The position numbers and the translations under genes were made by a program. Under the pieces are notes generated by a model that searched no databases, had not been told where the DNA came from, and worked only from the letters and a program-made list of their open reading frames with translations. A stretch of 45,919 nucleotides of DNA from an uncultured Kangiella sp. (GTDB lineage: Bacteria; Pseudomonadota; Gammaproteobacteria; Enterobacterales; Kangiellaceae). Below are positions 1-33,496 of this stretch, piece after piece. The stretch covers positions 1-45,919 of the forward strand of contig CATNCP010000025.1 of the NCBI GenBank assembly GCA_950096615.1, given 5' to 3'. Position 1 is the first letter of the stretch, and each line of letters begins with the position of its first letter.

Positions 1-91
1 TGGCGGTGAAGGAGGGATTCGAACCCTCGATACGCTACAAACGTATACACACTTTCCAGGCGTGCGCCTTCAGCCACTCGGCCACTTCACC
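1..91 (-). tRNA. tRNA-Ser (anticodon GGA)
   Basis: Read on the minus strand this is a complete class II tRNA with a long variable arm. It has a 7-bp acceptor stem, the D-arm GTGGCCGAGTGGCTGAAGG typical of serine tRNAs, the anticodon GGA at 57-55 (reads UCC/UCU), the T-loop GGTTCGAATCC and an encoded 3' CCA at 3-1. The gene ends at the window edge, but all of the mature tRNA is inside. The 5' end of the gene is repeated 170 bp upstream (240-265), and the only convincing promoter lies beyond that repeat, so the tRNA is probably made from a longer precursor. Confidence 0.96.
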
Positions 92-95
92 GTAA
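70..95 (-). repeat. 26-bp direct repeat, copy inside tRNA-Ser
   Basis: Positions 70-95 are identical to 240-265. On the minus strand the repeat holds 4 nt of leader (TTAC) followed by the first 22 nt of tRNA-Ser (acceptor 5' strand and most of the D-arm). The identity stops abruptly on both sides, which is how a target duplication or a broken tandem gene copy would look. Confidence 0.9.
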
Positions 96-120
96 ACTTT
101 TATTGAGGGGTGGTGTTTTG

Positions 121-239
121 GTAACACCTGATGTTACTTCTCTAGCGGCGCACTTCTGCGTGCGCGTTACTCGAAAGCTAATGCTTTCTCGCCCTTCGGG
201 CCGCTGGTGCATAGCCCCAGCGTTCAAACCTTTGGTTTG
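121..239. repeat. Array of six tandem small hairpins
   Basis: Six short inverted repeats follow each other with little spacing: 121-126/132-137, 148-153/160-165, 173-178/183-188, 191-194/198-201, 202-207/217-222 and 225-230/234-239. Stems are 4-6 bp and all perfect; loops are 3-9 nt. There is no T-run, so this is not a terminator. It lies exactly between the orphan tRNA 5' fragment and the intact tRNA-Ser. I see no coding potential and cannot assign it to a known repeat family. Confidence 0.75.
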
Positions 240-265
240 TCAGCCACTCGGCCACTTCACCGTAA
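240..265 (-). pseudogene. Orphan 5' fragment of tRNA-Ser (direct repeat copy 2)
   Basis: This copy carries the first 22 nt of tRNA-Ser with its TTAC leader, and is cut off after the D-arm. No anticodon arm, T-arm or 3' acceptor strand follows; the hairpin array replaces them. It begins about 5 nt after the predicted transcription start of the promoter at 273-301, the place expected for the 5' end of the original tRNA gene. It is either the relic of a first tandem tRNA-Ser gene or one side of a target duplication. Confidence 0.75.
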
Positions 266-272
266 GGCGCGT

Positions 273-301
273 AAGATAGCGGAAACTGGTGTTTATAGCA
301 A
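273..301 (-). promoter_or_regulatory. Promoter of the tRNA-Ser transcript
   Basis: On the minus strand there is a -35 TTGCTA (301-296), a 17-bp spacer and a -10 TATCTT (278-273), followed by a GC-rich discriminator ACGCGCC. This is the usual form of a stable-RNA promoter. Transcription would start near 266, just before the orphan tRNA fragment. Confidence 0.6.
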
Positions 302-308
302 GTCTAGC

Positions 309-731
309 TTAATCGGACTGCAAGTAGGACTTGTGGGGGGAGACGAGAATATCTTTCATGGCTTCTCGGCCTAGTAGCATCTTGTATCGCATTTTCTTAC
401 GGTCAGCTAAGCTAATATCAATATCCCAAGTTTTACCACCAATGGTAATCGGGGTTCTGATCACATATCTGAGCTGTGTTTGGCCATTTGAGCTTGTGAT
501 CTTTCGGTAGTCGACGATCTCAGATTCACAGCTTACCTCTTTCTTCGGATGTCGCTTATAAGGACATGTTTTAAACCTGACGAAATTTACGCCATCCTTA
601 TCGAAAGACTCTATATCATAAGCATGTAAACTAGAAGTTTTTGCGCCAGTATCAACTTTGACTTTTATAGGATCAATGTTGAGATCGGTGAGTTTGGCTT
701 CTTCTTTCCAACCAACGGTCATCTTAGTCAC
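309..731 (-). CDS. rimB: RimB-like retropepsin/zinc-protease family protein
   Basis: This 140-residue protein belongs to the family annotated as ATP-dependent zinc protease (COG4067), more recently described as a retropepsin-like protease that works with RimK. The diagnostic block is VDTGAKTSSLHA near residues 26-37, an aspartic-protease-like DTG motif; LLGREAM near residue 120 matches the family's C-terminal block. It has no signal peptide, so it is cytoplasmic. It lies 22 bp downstream of rimK on the same strand, the standard pairing. By family it trims or regulates the glutamate tails that RimK adds to ribosomal protein S6. The gene symbol rests on context and motif only. Confidence 0.8.
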   Translation of the reverse strand: MTKMTVGWKEEAKLTDLNIDPIKVKVDTGAKTSSLHAYDIESFDKDGVNFVRFKTCPYKRHPKKEVSCESEIVDYRKITSSNGQTQLRYVIRTPITIGGKTWDIDISLADRKKMRYKMLLGREAMKDILVSPHKSYLQSD

Positions 732-1855: not shown

Positions 1856-1910
1856 CTTGTCCTAATAGCCTATAGGCGCTTAATAAACAACTCCATTGAG
1901 GATAAAATTT

Positions 1911-3482
1911 ATGCGACGCCTAAGTAAAACTATAATAGCTTCGGCGGTAACATGCGGACTAGTTTCAGTTGCGCACTCTGCCGTTCTTCCAGACGTTCAG
2001 TCGAATAGCCCGTGGTTCACAGATGGCCAAAGCGCTATTGAAAAACAACTTAATCAAGCGCCAAAAAATAATGCAAAAAATGTCATCTTATTTGTTGGTG
2101 ACGGCATGGGAATTTCTACTATTACAGCTGCGCGTATTTTAGCGGGGCAGCGTGAAGGAAATACTGGCGAAGAGAACGTCCTTTCATTCGAAACAATGCC
2201 CTACAGTGCCCAAGTCAAAACCTATAACACTAACCAGCAAACTCCTGACTCAGCCGGCACTATGACAGCGATGATGACGGGAGTTAAAACGAAGGCTGGC
2301 GTTATTAATATTGCACCAGATACTGACCGAGCTAATTGTGATACTGCAACCGGTTACGAACTAAAAACAGCAATAGAGATGGCAGAAGAGAAGGGCTTGT
2401 CTACGGGAATCATTTCTACGGCTCGCGTAACTCACGCCACCCCCGCAGCGACCTATGCAAAAGTCCCAGAGCGCAACTGGGAGAGTGATGATGGTTTGCC
2501 TGAAGAAGCGAAAGACCTAGGCTGTAAAGATATTGCTTCTCAGCTGGTTGAGCTGGAGGCGGGAGATGGTATTGATGTGGTGATGGGCGGTGGCCGTCGT
2601 CATTTTATCCCTGAAACCGTTACGGACTCGGAAGGGAAGTCAGGAAAGCGAACTGATGGACGCGACTTAACGAATGAGTGGCTTGAACGTTACAACGATC
2701 AGGCAGCGTTTTACGTCGAAGACCAAGCAAGCTTTTCTGGACTTGATTTAGCCAACACTGACAAGTTATTAGCTTTGTTTAACTCATCTCACATGCAATA
2801 TAACGCTGATCGTCTAAAAGATGTTGGTGGTGAGCCAACGGTAACAGAAATGACGGAAGGTGCTTTAGAAGTTCTTAAAAAGAACGACAAGGGTTATTTT
2901 TTGATGGTGGAGTCTGGCCGTATTGACCATGGCCACCACGCTGGTAATGCATACCGCGCTTTGGACGACACCATTGAGTTTGCTAACGCTATTCAATACG
3001 CCATGGATAATACCAATCCTGAAGACACTTTAATTATGGTCACAGCGGACCACAGCCATGTGTTTACGATTGCTGGTTATCCGCAGCGAGGCAATCCAAT
3101 TTTGGGTTTGGTTAAATCTACTGACGGAAGCGGGCAACCAGAATCAGCGCCATCTTTAGCGTCAGACGGCATGCCATATACCACTGTTGGTTACACCAAT
3201 GGACTAGGCTTTGCTGATTATGGTGATGGTAATGGTGGTGATCAGCGTTATGCTGACGATCCACATACTGGCCGCGTTGATTTAGCTTCAACCGATACCA
3301 CTCAATCTGGCTTCCATCAAGAAGCGCTGGTTCCTTTAGGCTCTGAAACTCATGCTGGTGAAGATATTACGATTCATGCTCGTGGCCCCGGTGCTCACTT
3401 GCTGCAAGGGGTTATTGAGCAGAACGTTATCTTCCACGTGATCAATCAAGCGGCAGCGCTCGGTGGCGAAGCTTATCAATAA
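1911..3482 (+). CDS. Secreted alkaline phosphatase, PhoA superfamily
   Basis: A zinc/magnesium phosphomonoesterase that would release phosphate from organic esters outside the cytoplasm. I chose the ATG at 1911 (523 residues): GAGG at 1898-1901 is a well-spaced ribosome-binding site, while the longer TTG start overlaps that site. The first 24 residues form a Sec signal peptide ending AHSA. Active-site blocks follow in order: FVGDGMG (metal Asp), DSAGTMTAM with nucleophile Ser114, THATPAATYA, PERNWESDD (phosphate-binding Arg), VESGRIDHGHHAG, TADHSHVF and GSETHAGED (metal ligands). It is followed 45 bp later by a close paralogue and preceded by a tandem Pho box, so phosphate starvation control is likely. 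Confidence 0.93.
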   Translation: MRRLSKTIIASAVTCGLVSVAHSAVLPDVQSNSPWFTDGQSAIEKQLNQAPKNNAKNVILFVGDGMGISTITAARILAGQREGNTGEENVLSFETMPYSAQVKTYNTNQQTPDSAGTMTAMMTGVKTKAGVINIAPDTDRANCDTATGYELKTAIEMAEEKGLSTGIISTARVTHATPAATYAKVPERNWESDDGLPEEAKDLGCKDIASQLVELEAGDGIDVVMGGGRRHFIPETVTDSEGKSGKRTDGRDLTNEWLERYNDQAAFYVEDQASFSGLDLANTDKLLALFNSSHMQYNADRLKDVGGEPTVTEMTEGALEVLKKNDKGYFLMVESGRIDHGHHAGNAYRALDDTIEFANAIQYAMDNTNPEDTLIMVTADHSHVFTIAGYPQRGNPILGLVKSTDGSGQPESAPSLASDGMPYTTVGYTNGLGFADYGDGNGGDQRYADDPHTGRVDLASTDTTQSGFHQEALVPLGSETHAGEDITIHARGPGAHLLQGVIEQNVIFHVINQAAALGGEAYQ

Positions 3483-3527: not shown

Positions 3528-5177
3528 ATGAGTATTATTGAAAAGAAGCAGAGCTCGAAGAAGTATGCTTATAAATTATTAAGCGTTTTGATATCGGCAA
3601 CTGTGTTAACCGCATGTTTCGGTGATGATGACGATGATGAGCAAACGCCTGATCCTGAACCGCCTGTATCGAGCATAGACTGGGCCAAAACCAATCAATG
3701 GTTCAATCAAGGCAAGTCTCGTGTAGATGCTGCTTTGGAAACTGAAGAAGTCTTAACAAAAGGCTCTGCTAAAAACGTGATTCTTTTTGTGGGTGATGGC
3801 ATGGGCGTTTCGACCGTCACTGCTGCTCGAATATTCGCTGGACAGAAAGAGGGCGCTACTGGCGAAGAGTATCAACTGAGTTTTGATAAATTTCCCGTCG
3901 CGGGCTTTGCTAAAACCTATAACACCAACCAACAGACACCGGACTCAGCAGGAACTATGACGGCTATGGTGAGCGGTGTTAAAACGAAGGCGGGCGTTAT
4001 TGGTTACCCAGACAGCGCTCTGAGAGCTAACTGTAATTCTGCAAAAGGTAACGAGTTGGTCACAGCCGTTGAGCTTGCGGAAATGGCTGGCATGTCGACA
4101 GGGGTTGTGTCTACGGCACGCATCACGCACGCCACGCCAGCCGCTACTTATGCTAAGTCTCCTGAACGTAACTGGGAAAGTGACGATAGCTTAACGGACG
4201 AAGCAAAAAACAATGGCTGTAAAGATATTGCTACCCAGCTGGTTGAATTTTCTTTTGGCGATGGCATAGACGTTGTTATGGGCGGTGGTCGTCGCCATTT
4301 CATTCCGAATACAGTAACCGATGAAGAAGGTAAAACTGGCAAACGTACCGATGGAGTTAATTTGATTGATTCTTGGAAAGCTAAGTATGCGGTTGGTAAC
4401 TATGTGTATGACCAAGCAGGGTTTGATGCGCTGGGTGCCGACTCGGCAACGAAGGTTCTAGGCTTGTTTAACTCATCGCACATGGAGTATGAAGCCGATC
4501 GCGCTAATGATGTAGCGGGTGAACCGTCATTAAGCGAGATGACGTCTAAGTCGATTGATATTTTAAGCAAAAACGACAAAGGATTTTTCTTAACAGTCGA
4601 GTCAGGGCGAATTGATCATGGCCACCATGCCGGAAATGCTTATCGTGCGCTTGAGGATGCGGTTGAGTTCGCTGAAGCAGTACAGGCTGCTGTAGATAAA
4701 GTGGATTTAAATGAAACCTTGATTATTGTGACCGCTGATCATAGTCATGTTTTTACTTTGGCCGGCTACCCGACACGAGGTAATCCAATTTTGGGTGTGG
4801 TTAAAGGTAATGATGACGCCGGACACGCGGAAGATGAAGCTGTCATGGCTGCCGATGATATGCCATACACCACAGTGGGGTATGCCAATGGTTTAGGCTT
4901 TGCCGATTATGGCGAAGGCAATGGTGGCGATCAGCGATATGGCGATGCAGGAGCTGCCGGACGTCATGATTTAGATGGTATTGATACTGAGTCTTCCGGT
5001 TTTCACCAAGAAGCACTAATTCCCTTGGGCTCAGAAACACACTCTGGCGAAGATGTTGGTATCTATGCTGTAGGTCCAGGCGCTCAGTTGTTACGCGGTA
5101 CTCATGAACAGAGCAATATTTTCCATGCAATGAATCATATTGCTGATTTAGTCGGTAAAGCAGAAGCTGCACAATAA
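3528..5177 (+). CDS. Lipoprotein alkaline phosphatase, PhoA superfamily
   Basis: A 549-residue paralogue of the preceding gene, sharing all its catalytic blocks (FVGDGMG, DSAGTMTAM with Ser140, THATPAATYA, ERNWESDD, VESGRIDHGHHAG, TADHSHVF, GSETHSGED). It differs at the N-terminus: residues 1-30 form a lipoprotein signal with lipobox VLTAC, followed by an acidic spacer (FGDDDDDE) and a proline-rich linker, so it should be anchored by lipid. Residue +2 is Phe rather than Asp, consistent with outer-membrane sorting. GAGG lies at a good distance from the ATG. It is co-transcribed with the first phosphatase and presumably arose by tandem duplication. Confidence 0.93.
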   Translation: MSIIEKKQSSKKYAYKLLSVLISATVLTACFGDDDDDEQTPDPEPPVSSIDWAKTNQWFNQGKSRVDAALETEEVLTKGSAKNVILFVGDGMGVSTVTAARIFAGQKEGATGEEYQLSFDKFPVAGFAKTYNTNQQTPDSAGTMTAMVSGVKTKAGVIGYPDSALRANCNSAKGNELVTAVELAEMAGMSTGVVSTARITHATPAATYAKSPERNWESDDSLTDEAKNNGCKDIATQLVEFSFGDGIDVVMGGGRRHFIPNTVTDEEGKTGKRTDGVNLIDSWKAKYAVGNYVYDQAGFDALGADSATKVLGLFNSSHMEYEADRANDVAGEPSLSEMTSKSIDILSKNDKGFFLTVESGRIDHGHHAGNAYRALEDAVEFAEAVQAAVDKVDLNETLIIVTADHSHVFTLAGYPTRGNPILGVVKGNDDAGHAEDEAVMAADDMPYTTVGYANGLGFADYGEGNGGDQRYGDAGAAGRHDLDGIDTESSGFHQEALIPLGSETHSGEDVGIYAVGPGAQLLRGTHEQSNIFHAMNHIADLVGKAEAAQ

Positions 5178-5884: not shown

Positions 5885-5988
<104 letters not shown>

Positions 5989-31173: not shown

Positions 31174-31268
31174 TTGCAGAACCTCTCTGTGCGGTAACGA
31201 CGAATCGAGGTTATTATAGACAACAACTGGTCAGATGATTGTTATATTGTTTAAAATGTATACAAATG

Positions 31269-31288
31269 GAGCAGCTCGGAAGCTGCTC
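31269..31288. terminator. Hairpin after the S46 peptidase gene
   Basis: GAGCAGCT (31269-31276) and AGCTGCTC (31281-31288) form a perfect 8-bp stem with loop CGGA. On the minus strand it is downstream of the peptidase stop codon, but the following bases are not a clean T-run, so termination strength is uncertain. Confidence 0.45.
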
Positions 31289-31327
31289 TATTAACTGTGA
31301 TATTGTAGGATTTGTTAAATCATTAAC

Positions 31328-33496
31328 TTATCGAACAATCTTCATTTCTTTAATGAGGTTATCGGCATTATCGATATGCTCCATGACCCACAGCATATAA
31401 GCACTGCTGACATGAATCGAACGATTTAAGTTTGGATTGTAATCCCAATCGCCAATAATTGACTCATAAACACCATCAAACAATAGCCCCACAAACTCGG
31501 CATTAGCGTTCATCGTTGGTGAACCAGAGTTACCGCCTGTGGTATCAACAGTACTTAAGAAGTTAACCTGGACACTGTTCAGTGCTGAATCTTCATATTC
31601 ACCGTACTGCTTTGCTTTGATGAGCTCTAGCTGTTTTTGAGGCGAGTTAAAAGGCTCTTCACCAGTGTGTTTAGCTGAAAGACCTTCCAGCGTCGTAAAA
31701 GGGGTAGCCTTTAAGCCATCTTGTGGAGAATACCCTTTAACATTGCCGTAAGTTACACGAAGCGTGCTATTTGCATCAGCATAAACCGCTCTGTCTTGTG
31801 ATTCATAGTAGTCAATGATGGCTGCCATATATTGAGGGCGAAGCTTTTTGAATTTGCCTGATTGCTCTTTATCTTCAAGCTCTTTCTTATGCTTTTCATC
31901 ATACGTCGCAACGGCCAATTCAATAAATGGATCATCAGAACTTCTGAATTCTTCAACAGACTTGCCAACCCAATTCAAACGAACGTCTTGGTCGGTCAGC
32001 TTAGTTTCAGCGAACATGCTCTCAACTTTTGCATTGAATGCTGTTGCATCAAATGCGCCATCGATTCCCATGTATTTATCATAGCTTTTGACTCGGTCTT
32101 CAACCGGTAATTTAGCGTATTCAGCGACAAAGTGCTTATAAAGCGCTTTTTCTACAGCTGCGTCCCAGCGACGGTTCATACGCTTTAAGCCTTCTTTGAT
32201 ACGCGTAATATCACGTTCTTGGTAACCAGGCTCACGCTCTGCGTCGGGCTTTTCACTTTCAATAGCAAGACGGTACAGCTGGGCTGCTGTTCCTGAGAGA
32301 GTATCGCGGTTCATGCCCCATTTTTTTAACTCAACCGCTTGGTCTTTAAGGTCTTCTTTAATTAAAGCATCAAGCTGCGCTAGAGCATCGCCGTGCTTTT
32401 CTTTCATTTCAGGGTTATCTAAAAGCCATGCTTCTAGGTCAGCTTCAAGCTTTTGACGGCGTTCTAATAAATCACCTTTACCGTAGCTTTTGATCATGCT
32501 GCCCCAGTTCTTCTCGGCATTATTTAAACCTGCTAGTGTGCTTGCGTATTTCACGCGCGCGTCGCTACCTTCTGGTGCATTCTCTTTAATGATGTCAATG
32601 TACTTATGAAGAATGGTGCGGAAAGTAGGGTAGCGCCATTCGAACTGGTTCTTGACTTCTGCGCTGGTGCGATAGCGATTTGTGCGACCCGGATAGCCAG
32701 TAACCATCACGAAATCACCTTTAGCAACACCGCTCGCATTTACTTTTAAAAAGTGCTCAGGTTCGTAAGGAACATTGTCTTCAGCAAAGTCAGCAGGCTT
32801 ACCGTCTTGACCTACGTAGGCGCGGTAGAAAGCGAAGTCACCAGTGTGACGAGGCCACATCCAGTTATCGACATCACCACCATACTTACCAATGTGTGAC
32901 GACGGTGCATACACTAAACGAACATCACGAATTTCCATTTGCTTGATTAAGTAGTACTCAAGTCCACCATGAAAGCCATAGACATTACAGCGGTAGCCTT
33001 CTTCAGCTTCGCAGTCAGCTACAAGTGATTTCTCTTTCTTCTCAACGGCCTTATAGCGATCCATGCCAGACATCTCATCGTTGAGGCCGTCATTAATGGT
33101 GTCAGTGACGTTTGTGACGTCAGTTGTCACGTAAACACGTGATCCTGGCGCTGCGGCTAACTCTTCAGAGAAGTCTTTAGCTAAGAAGCCTTTTTCTAGA
33201 AGATTGTTTTCAGCAGTAGAGTTAAATTGGATACTGCCGTACGCACAGTGGTGATTTGTCGCTACTAAGCCTTTCGGCGAAAGGAAAGATGCAGTACAGC
33301 CACCTAGACTAATTACCGCGCCCATTGGGAATTCGGTTAATTTGCTCAAATCTTCTGGATCAATCTTTAAACCAGCATCTTCAAGCTGATCTTCAATTAA
33401 AGGTAGCTGGTTTGGTTGCCACATACCTTCATCCGCCATCAATGGCGAAGCTGCAGTCGCTACAGAAAGTGCTGCAACCGTAAGTAACTTCTTCAT
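31328..33496 (-). CDS. S46 family dipeptidyl-peptidase (DPP7-like)
   Basis: An exopeptidase that removes dipeptides from the N-terminus of peptides. The ATG at 33496 (722 residues) is chosen because AGGGG precedes it and the protein then starts with a Sec signal (MKKLLTVAALSVATAASPLMA). Chymotrypsin-like triad blocks: His in ATNHHCAYGSIQ (residues 79-90), Asp in GDVDNWMWPRHTGDF, and Ser in TTGGNSGSPTMN. After the Ser, the block GLLFDG has Gly where DPP7 has Gly and DPP11 has Arg, suggesting preference for hydrophobic rather than acidic P1 residues. Between lies the long alpha-helical cap. S46 peptidases are typical of asaccharolytic, peptide-using bacteria. Confidence 0.93.
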   Translation of the reverse strand: MKKLLTVAALSVATAASPLMADEGMWQPNQLPLIEDQLEDAGLKIDPEDLSKLTEFPMGAVISLGGCTASFLSPKGLVATNHHCAYGSIQFNSTAENNLLEKGFLAKDFSEELAAAPGSRVYVTTDVTNVTDTINDGLNDEMSGMDRYKAVEKKEKSLVADCEAEEGYRCNVYGFHGGLEYYLIKQMEIRDVRLVYAPSSHIGKYGGDVDNWMWPRHTGDFAFYRAYVGQDGKPADFAEDNVPYEPEHFLKVNASGVAKGDFVMVTGYPGRTNRYRTSAEVKNQFEWRYPTFRTILHKYIDIIKENAPEGSDARVKYASTLAGLNNAEKNWGSMIKSYGKGDLLERRQKLEADLEAWLLDNPEMKEKHGDALAQLDALIKEDLKDQAVELKKWGMNRDTLSGTAAQLYRLAIESEKPDAEREPGYQERDITRIKEGLKRMNRRWDAAVEKALYKHFVAEYAKLPVEDRVKSYDKYMGIDGAFDATAFNAKVESMFAETKLTDQDVRLNWVGKSVEEFRSSDDPFIELAVATYDEKHKKELEDKEQSGKFKKLRPQYMAAIIDYYESQDRAVYADANSTLRVTYGNVKGYSPQDGLKATPFTTLEGLSAKHTGEEPFNSPQKQLELIKAKQYGEYEDSALNSVQVNFLSTVDTTGGNSGSPTMNANAEFVGLLFDGVYESIIGDWDYNPNLNRSIHVSSAYMLWVMEHIDNADNLIKEMKIVR

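Follow-up and report, generated by a model that had tools for sequence, protein, structure and literature searches.

The contig end studied here raises the question of what a chain of short hairpins is doing between a fragment of a tRNA gene and the intact gene. The locus belongs to a 45,919-nucleotide stretch of DNA from an uncultured Kangiella species (hereafter the window, meaning the whole stretch analysed), in which six inverted repeats follow one another at positions 121–239. The original prediction, made from the letters alone, had considered an RNA element, a mobile non-coding cassette or a device for precursor processing. The explanation that we find best as a whole, with a probability of about 0.7, is that of a relative of the tRNA-linked repeats (TLR/RtT) attached to the 5′ side of its tRNA gene: a cassette of approximately 71 bp would interrupt a decayed extra copy of tRNA-Ser(GGA), and the unit would be mainly a DNA-level element with a leader RNA as its by-product.

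The hairpin array ahead of tRNA-Ser(GGA)

All six inverted repeats were recovered where they had been reported. A scan for hairpins with loops of 3–8 nt returned five of them (121–137, 148–165, 173–188 and 225–239, with stems of 6 bp each, and 191–201, with 4 bp), all perfect and with loops of 3–6 nt; the perfect GCTGG/CCAGC inverted repeat at 203–221 was left uncounted because its loop, of 9 nt, exceeds the limit of the scan. Such a density had been held to be far from chance, shuffled sequence being named as the control, and the dinucleotide shuffles and fold z-scores agree with this. At least five hairpins with stems of at least 4 bp appeared in 3 of 2000 shuffles, none of the 2000 matched the 28 paired bp or contained four stems of at least 5 bp, and the same number of hairpins was not reached; the z-scores were −4.71 (117–239, plus strand) and −3.76 (96–269, minus strand), with 0 of 200 shuffles as good in either case. 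When the window was sampled in 119-bp stretches at steps of 60 bp, four stems of at least 5 bp were present in 2 of 764, namely in the array and in the one starting at 31261. The latter (31261–31379) includes one terminator-like stem.

The features of the unit lie on the minus strand, the plus strand of the array being antisense to the tRNA transcript. Intact tRNA-Ser(GGA) occupies positions 1–91, and its CCA end is the contig end. The tRNA fragment noticed beside the array proved to be an exact 26-bp copy (240–265, repeating 70–95), which consists of TTAC and nt 1–22 of tRNA-Ser, i.e. the 5′ strand of the acceptor and the D-arm up to GGCTGA. Further upstream, a probable tRNA promoter was read by eye at 273–301 (TTGCTA at 301–296, 17 nt, TATCTT at 278–273, then ACGCGCC); a strict consensus scan of the window locus returned no promoter, and TATCTTACGC stands upstream of the array in all nine unit-bearing Kangiella loci. 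Inside the D-loop of the tRNA copy lies the RtT/TLR-related cassette (169–239, approximately 71 bp), which runs from CAAACC to GAGT and holds four hairpins. Hairpins 1 (225–239, CAAACC-AAA-GGTTTG), 3 (191–201, GCCC-GAA-GGGC) and 4 (173–188, GAAAGC-ATTA-GCTTTC, then GAGTAA) were delimited by the scan, and hairpin 2 (202–222, CGCTGG...CCAGCG with an inner GC-TAT-GC) by the fold and by reading of the sequence.

The tRNA sequence GGCTGA-AGGCGCACGC corresponds in the unit to GGCTGA-cassette-A-ACGCGCACGC, with the junction at GGCTGA^A. ACGCGCACGC itself stands at 167–158, in a tRNA-derived remnant (148–167) recognised by comparison with the tRNA; because the unit resumes with it at the point where the tRNA has AGGCGCACGC, hairpin 5 (148–165) is a remnant of the tRNA anticodon stem, an origin that had been overlooked together with the known relatives RtT and TLR. 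Past the anticodon stem, the tRNA copy of the window unit is unrecognisable, and the remaining spacer (96–147, delimited by identity comparison) varies by species and carries hairpin 6 (121–137) and an A-rich leader. The order on the tRNA strand is promoter (301–273), tRNA 5′ copy (265–240), cassette (239–169), ACGCGCACGC, spacer to 96 and intact tRNA; the window unit duplicates the 5′ half of tRNA-Ser and holds a cassette in the D-loop of this duplicate. Elsewhere in the window, a small SRP RNA was found at 5890–5986 of the plus strand (Rfam RF00169, 73 bits), and the adjoining long ORFs at 1896–3482 and 3528–5177 (plus strand), which are mutually similar, presumably resemble alkaline phosphatases.

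Kinship with known repeats and occurrence in Kangiella

Two models were used for the searches. R1 was made of ten Kangiella units, with the tRNA-Ser 5′ end filling 22 of its 116 positions; since it favours serine units, a second model without tRNA letters, R2, was built from 11 cassettes, one of them from the window, which it matches at 167–239 with 68.1 bits. Each model recovered all three repeats of the tyrT locus of E. coli K-12, in which every repeat ends in the tRNA-Tyr 3′ end, with scores of 20.0–20.9 bits for R1 (next match, 10.5) and 28.4–29.1 bits for R2 (next, 10.1). The hairpin cassette that marks TLRs is thus also that of the Kangiella unit, and these matches demonstrate, at the level of nucleotide similarity, its homology with the E. 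coli tRNA-linked repeats (TLR/RtT). The Rfam family RtT (RF00391; gathering score, 45 bits) has matches in 11 of the 20 Kangiella genomes, and in six of these they exceed the gathering score. At one locus (L087), the matches of R1 and RtT coincide on the 3′ side of a tRNA (RtT, 55.4 bits), and another 3′-placed relative (L013) matched RtT with 52.4 bits; no RtT match was present in the genome of the window, nor at E ≤ 5 in window positions 92–270. The best Rfam match of the window unit was RF02902 (AaHKsRNA22), to which it corresponds hairpin for hairpin with 32.8 bits (E 8e-5, 179 bases), below the gathering score of 39.8 bits.

Intact units stand between promoter and tRNA in nine of the 20 Kangiella genomes (the window genome G000, and G001, G005, G007, G009, G012, G016, G018 and G019); G008 has a unit remnant only, nine genomes have no unit at tRNA-Ser(GGA), and in G011 the tRNA-Ser(GGA) locus was not found. 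As with TLRs, there may be one to several copies, in Kangiella one to three in tandem: one in the window, three in G018 (identical, 167 bp each) and G012 (differing solely in the tRNA copy), and at least two in G009, whose two contigs break within the array with an overlap of 127 bases. Unequal recombination between the direct repeats would alter this number. In G019, G016 and G012, the D-stem of the tRNA has T10-A25 in place of G10-C25, and the units of these genomes carry the same bases. A poorly resolved gene tree of 12 rows (7 of 19 genomes yielded no neighbour gene) suggests that some of the absences are losses.

R2 has three matches in the genome of the window. A second cassette lies there 3′ of tRNA-Arg(ACG) on contig C18 (L064), between GAGTTCGA and AATCCTTC (R2, 34.4 bits). 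Three contigs of the same genome (the window contig, C31 and C37) end 0–4 bases from the CCA end of a tRNA (Ser, Met and Lys), as expected because further tRNA 3′-end repeats, if following, would break the assembly. Palindromic repeats resembling GTAGGTTGGTG, which stand ahead of tRNA-Ser in two genomes of Kangiella (L010, approx. 900–1000; L012, approx. 1350–1400), are another repeat family.

Placement of the cassettes and interrupted tRNA copies

In the order, R1 matched 43 of 394 genomes, and in the class, 51 of 369; R2 had matches in 149 of 339 class genomes, representing 124 of 256 genera. In the order sample, 97 of 135 R1 matches were classed (Kangiella 5′ units, matches in tRNA genes, weak matches and a single duplicate were left out): five lie ahead of a tRNA, 13 lie behind one and share its orientation, three are oriented against the closest tRNA, and for 76 the stretch retrieved contains no tRNA. 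The class sample gave 23 preceding, 46 following and one opposite, with 15 lacking a tRNA within 420 bases (85 rows, 2 of 87 being left out as duplicates). The 5′ end of the own tRNA is copied in 18 of these 23 preceding rows, with 0–1 mismatches of 18 in 16 of them and 4–5 in two; all 18 are serine, a count that is biased because R1 contains the tRNA-Ser 5′ end. With R2, 87 rows from the top of the list (2 of 89 were left out as duplicates) fell into 15 preceding, 33 following, four opposite and 35 without a tRNA within 420 bases, and seven of the 15 carry the 5′ end of their own tRNA, six being serine (one GGA, one GCT and four TGA) and one arginine (G587). The 5′ linkage is called mostly serine because of these figures and of a valine case (L081), by which a linkage to serine only is ruled out. 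The R2 placement set comprised 68 loci, i.e. 30 first returned and 38 of 40 further down the list (L321 was left out, and L304 dropped as a repeat of L280). A cassette-free pattern, two serine 5′ motifs 125–155 bases apart, occurred in 9 of 394 genomes, and its reversed control in none.

A list restricted to serine tRNAs, with class rows admitted at a distance below 200 and with no more than 5 mismatches in 18, comprises 30 5′-linked units (GGA 20, GCT 9, TGA 1) in 28 genomes, 20 genera and 16 families according to assigned labels. The 12-nt stretch after their cassettes has 2.59 mismatches with the own serine tRNA versus 4.25 with other serine isoacceptors (n=29; G661 was skipped). At three loci, tRNA is found on both flanks of the cassette: a near-complete copy of tRNA-Arg(CCG) before the intact gene, with the cassette in its T-loop (G587), and two copies of tRNA-Ser(TGA), one with the cassette in the anticodon loop after TTGA (G706) and the other in the D-arm (G516). 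Because the tRNA sequence continues on both sides in these three, the cassette interrupts extra tRNA copies there, and they support, together with a T-loop case at tRNA-Val (G034), an insertion into such copies. YGA stands directly before the cassette in 56 of 87 R2 rows (CGA 40, TGA 16), a rule that was formulated after the sites had been seen and to which G440 (TTA) and G516 and G696 (cut at GA^G) are exceptions. Among distinct serine tRNAs, 60 of 61 have the motif YGAA in the D-arm, as opposed to 0 of 94 others; 111 of all 155 have it in the T-arm.

Two geometries were discarded. In the 3′ units, the 3′ strand of the T-arm is specific to the linked tRNA (1.56 versus 5.69 mismatches); the 5′ strand is not tRNA-specific (3.44 versus 3.60), which rules out that these units split the T-arm of the linked tRNA itself. 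A general position within a larger hairpin was rejected as well, and ‘always in a hairpin loop’ is unsupported because the flanks pair no better than re-paired ones (4.45 versus 4.30).

For the window locus, we infer that an extra copy of tRNA-Ser(GGA) arose by duplication upstream of the intact gene, that an RtT-type cassette then entered the D-loop of this copy after GGCTGA, and that the remainder of the interrupted copy decayed. In a wider sense, the RtT/TLR cassette may be a very small mobile DNA element that encodes no protein and inserts into extra tRNA copies just after GA, usually YGA, in a tRNA loop, a site offered by the T-loops of most tRNAs and also by serine D-loops and the tRNA-Ser(TGA) anticodon; we put this forward tentatively, giving it somewhat less than an even chance. 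To our knowledge, no mobilising enzyme of the cassette has been reported, and no pair of filled and empty sites was seen within one species. If true, mobility would explain the known 3′ repeats as well as an undescribed, mostly serine 5′-linked class across the Gammaproteobacteria; this mirror class at the 5′ end and the two-sided tRNA flanks provide a concrete idea of how TLRs enter, i.e. by insertion into spare tRNA copies. Among the three readings first offered, the mobile non-coding cassette seems to fit best, given a core present in many genera, located 5′ and 3′ of tRNAs and away from them, interrupting extra tRNA copies and occurring in identical or near-identical form at several sites within one genome.

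Identical or nearly identical cassettes were seen at four inspected sites each in G643 (L316–L319) and G519 (L299 and L310–L312), inside longer shared repeats, the flanks on either side being largely common over approximately 40 bases; in these two genomes, the cassette travels within longer repeats. In G208 (L150), two cassettes lie 3′ of tRNA-Leu(TAA) in the opposite direction, each beside a copy of its 3′ end. An origin from phages or plasmids was rejected: the window unit had three weak matches at E 5 in the phage collection and none among plasmids, and one dispersed cassette gave partial matches to 26 Pantoea plasmids, 7 Gordonia phage records and 2 Salmonella records.

RNA or DNA element, and comparison with known systems

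Over 36 species pairs, the mean identity was 0.80 for the core and 0.56 for the spacer, versus 0.51 for shuffled spacer; that of the adjacent gene was 0.73 over 28 pairs, in 24 of which the core was higher. Loops and linkers are conserved as well as stems, and compensatory changes across relatives, which the original prediction had proposed as a check, are present in 10 of 29 predicted base pairs (both sides altered, pairing kept). Conservation of the core speaks in favour of some role that a by-product would not have. In stems that are selected as RNA, G-U is expected to exceed A-C, and the control of acceptor stems from 78 tRNAs has a G-T:A-C ratio of 16:1. Dispersed cassettes gave 18:14 and 0:2 in sequence-only alignments (Fisher p 0.004 versus tRNA) and 8:10 in a strand-neutral scan; the G-U excess typical of RNA helices is absent from them, and for this reason they look like DNA palindromes. 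The same scan gave an interior ratio of 9:3 in the 30 5′-linked units, which rests on few cases and does not differ from the tRNA control (p 0.28), and the 11 distinct Kangiella units gave 3:2; the 97 versus 33 from model-fitted alignments is biased by the model. An RNA element is plausible from the position in a tRNA leader, the compensatory changes and the conserved core, with the negative G-U test of the dispersed units speaking against it. In the reading that we prefer, transcription from the tRNA promoter would include the unit as a leader of the pre-tRNA, to be removed by cleavage at the 5′ end of the tRNA, with RNase P as the probable enzyme; we propose that this leader is tolerated because an intact tRNA follows. 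The unit would act mainly at the DNA level, the leader RNA being a by-product, with some constraint on the core. A number of serine-tRNA precursors would then probably have a structured leader.

Three alternatives were considered. According to the accessible text of PMC8144298, three E. coli TLRs (RrA/B/F) are transcribed and processed, and their RNAs bind Hfq and CsrA through GGA motifs, and the window unit might likewise release a functional small RNA from the pre-tRNA that titrates CsrA and/or Hfq. In many relatives of the cassette, the loops of hairpins 1 and 4 do contain GGA, dispersed copies typically reading CAAAATCG..GGA..CGATTTTGAACATCGGAGC...GCGACGATGGCCCGNAGGGCGAG...GAGTAA, and the conserved core and the 9:3 ratio point the same way; however, the window unit contains no GGA, the ratio rests on few cases, and an intact unit is present in just nine of the 20 Kangiella genomes, so that we consider such an RNA unlikely. 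A cis-acting leader that tunes the supply of tRNA-Ser, through slower transcription or delayed RNase P processing, would agree with the promoter upstream of the array in nine Kangiella loci and with PMC2965389, whose accessible part links rtT-like repeats to BIMEs and attenuation, names them as candidate attenuators and refers to an attenuating effect of BIMEs in front of a tRNA reporter; we judge it less likely still, as no terminator-like site was found in window positions 1–420, the copy number varies and many relatives are without a unit. Least likely is a neutral relic with hairpins kept perfect by template-switching in replication and no selection, which would suit the missing G-T excess of dispersed stems, the patchy presence and the remnants in G008, G001 and G005, but not the conserved loops and linkers, a core identity above that of the adjacent gene in most pairs, or the single unit copy in the window genome.

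How the unit, taken as a cassette in a decayed tRNA copy, relates to known systems can be summarised as follows. E. coli TLRs, first described in 1978, number 22 at ten loci, and their function was still unknown in 2021, as stated in the accessible text of PMC8144298. No description of 5′-linked TLRs was found in the literature searched, which included few subscription papers. The accessible parts of PMC8250186 and PMC7657543 use RtT RNA as a structure example. In common with the E. coli TLRs (rttR in tyrT; rrA/rrB/rrF), the window unit has a homologous hairpin cassette ending in GAGTAA and a copy of one terminus of the linked tRNA, may occur in tandem and lies within the tRNA transcription unit. 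Whereas the known TLRs come after the gene and repeat its 3′ end (the last 18–19 bp of a TLR are identical to the 3′ terminus of the gene behind which it stands; PMC8144298, accessible part), the window unit precedes its tRNA, copies the 5′ end of this following gene and has the cassette in a D-loop. As TLRs are defined by the copy of the 3′ end, we do not file it as one, though it has the TLR cassette. RtT (RF00391) shares its place with the R1 match at L087 and leaves the window unit unmatched; AaHKsRNA22 (RF02902) matches it hairpin for hairpin but below the gathering score, as compared by sequence. Arrc20 and Arrc21 of A. pleuropneumoniae are likewise RtT-family RNAs upstream of tRNA genes, seen on Northern blots, but the tRNAs are Asn and Lys, and the accessible part of PMC4986893 describes no copy of a tRNA 5′ end. 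With the cassette of TLRs and the opposite end of the tRNA, the window unit represents a new variant within TLR/RtT, a mirror image of the known form.
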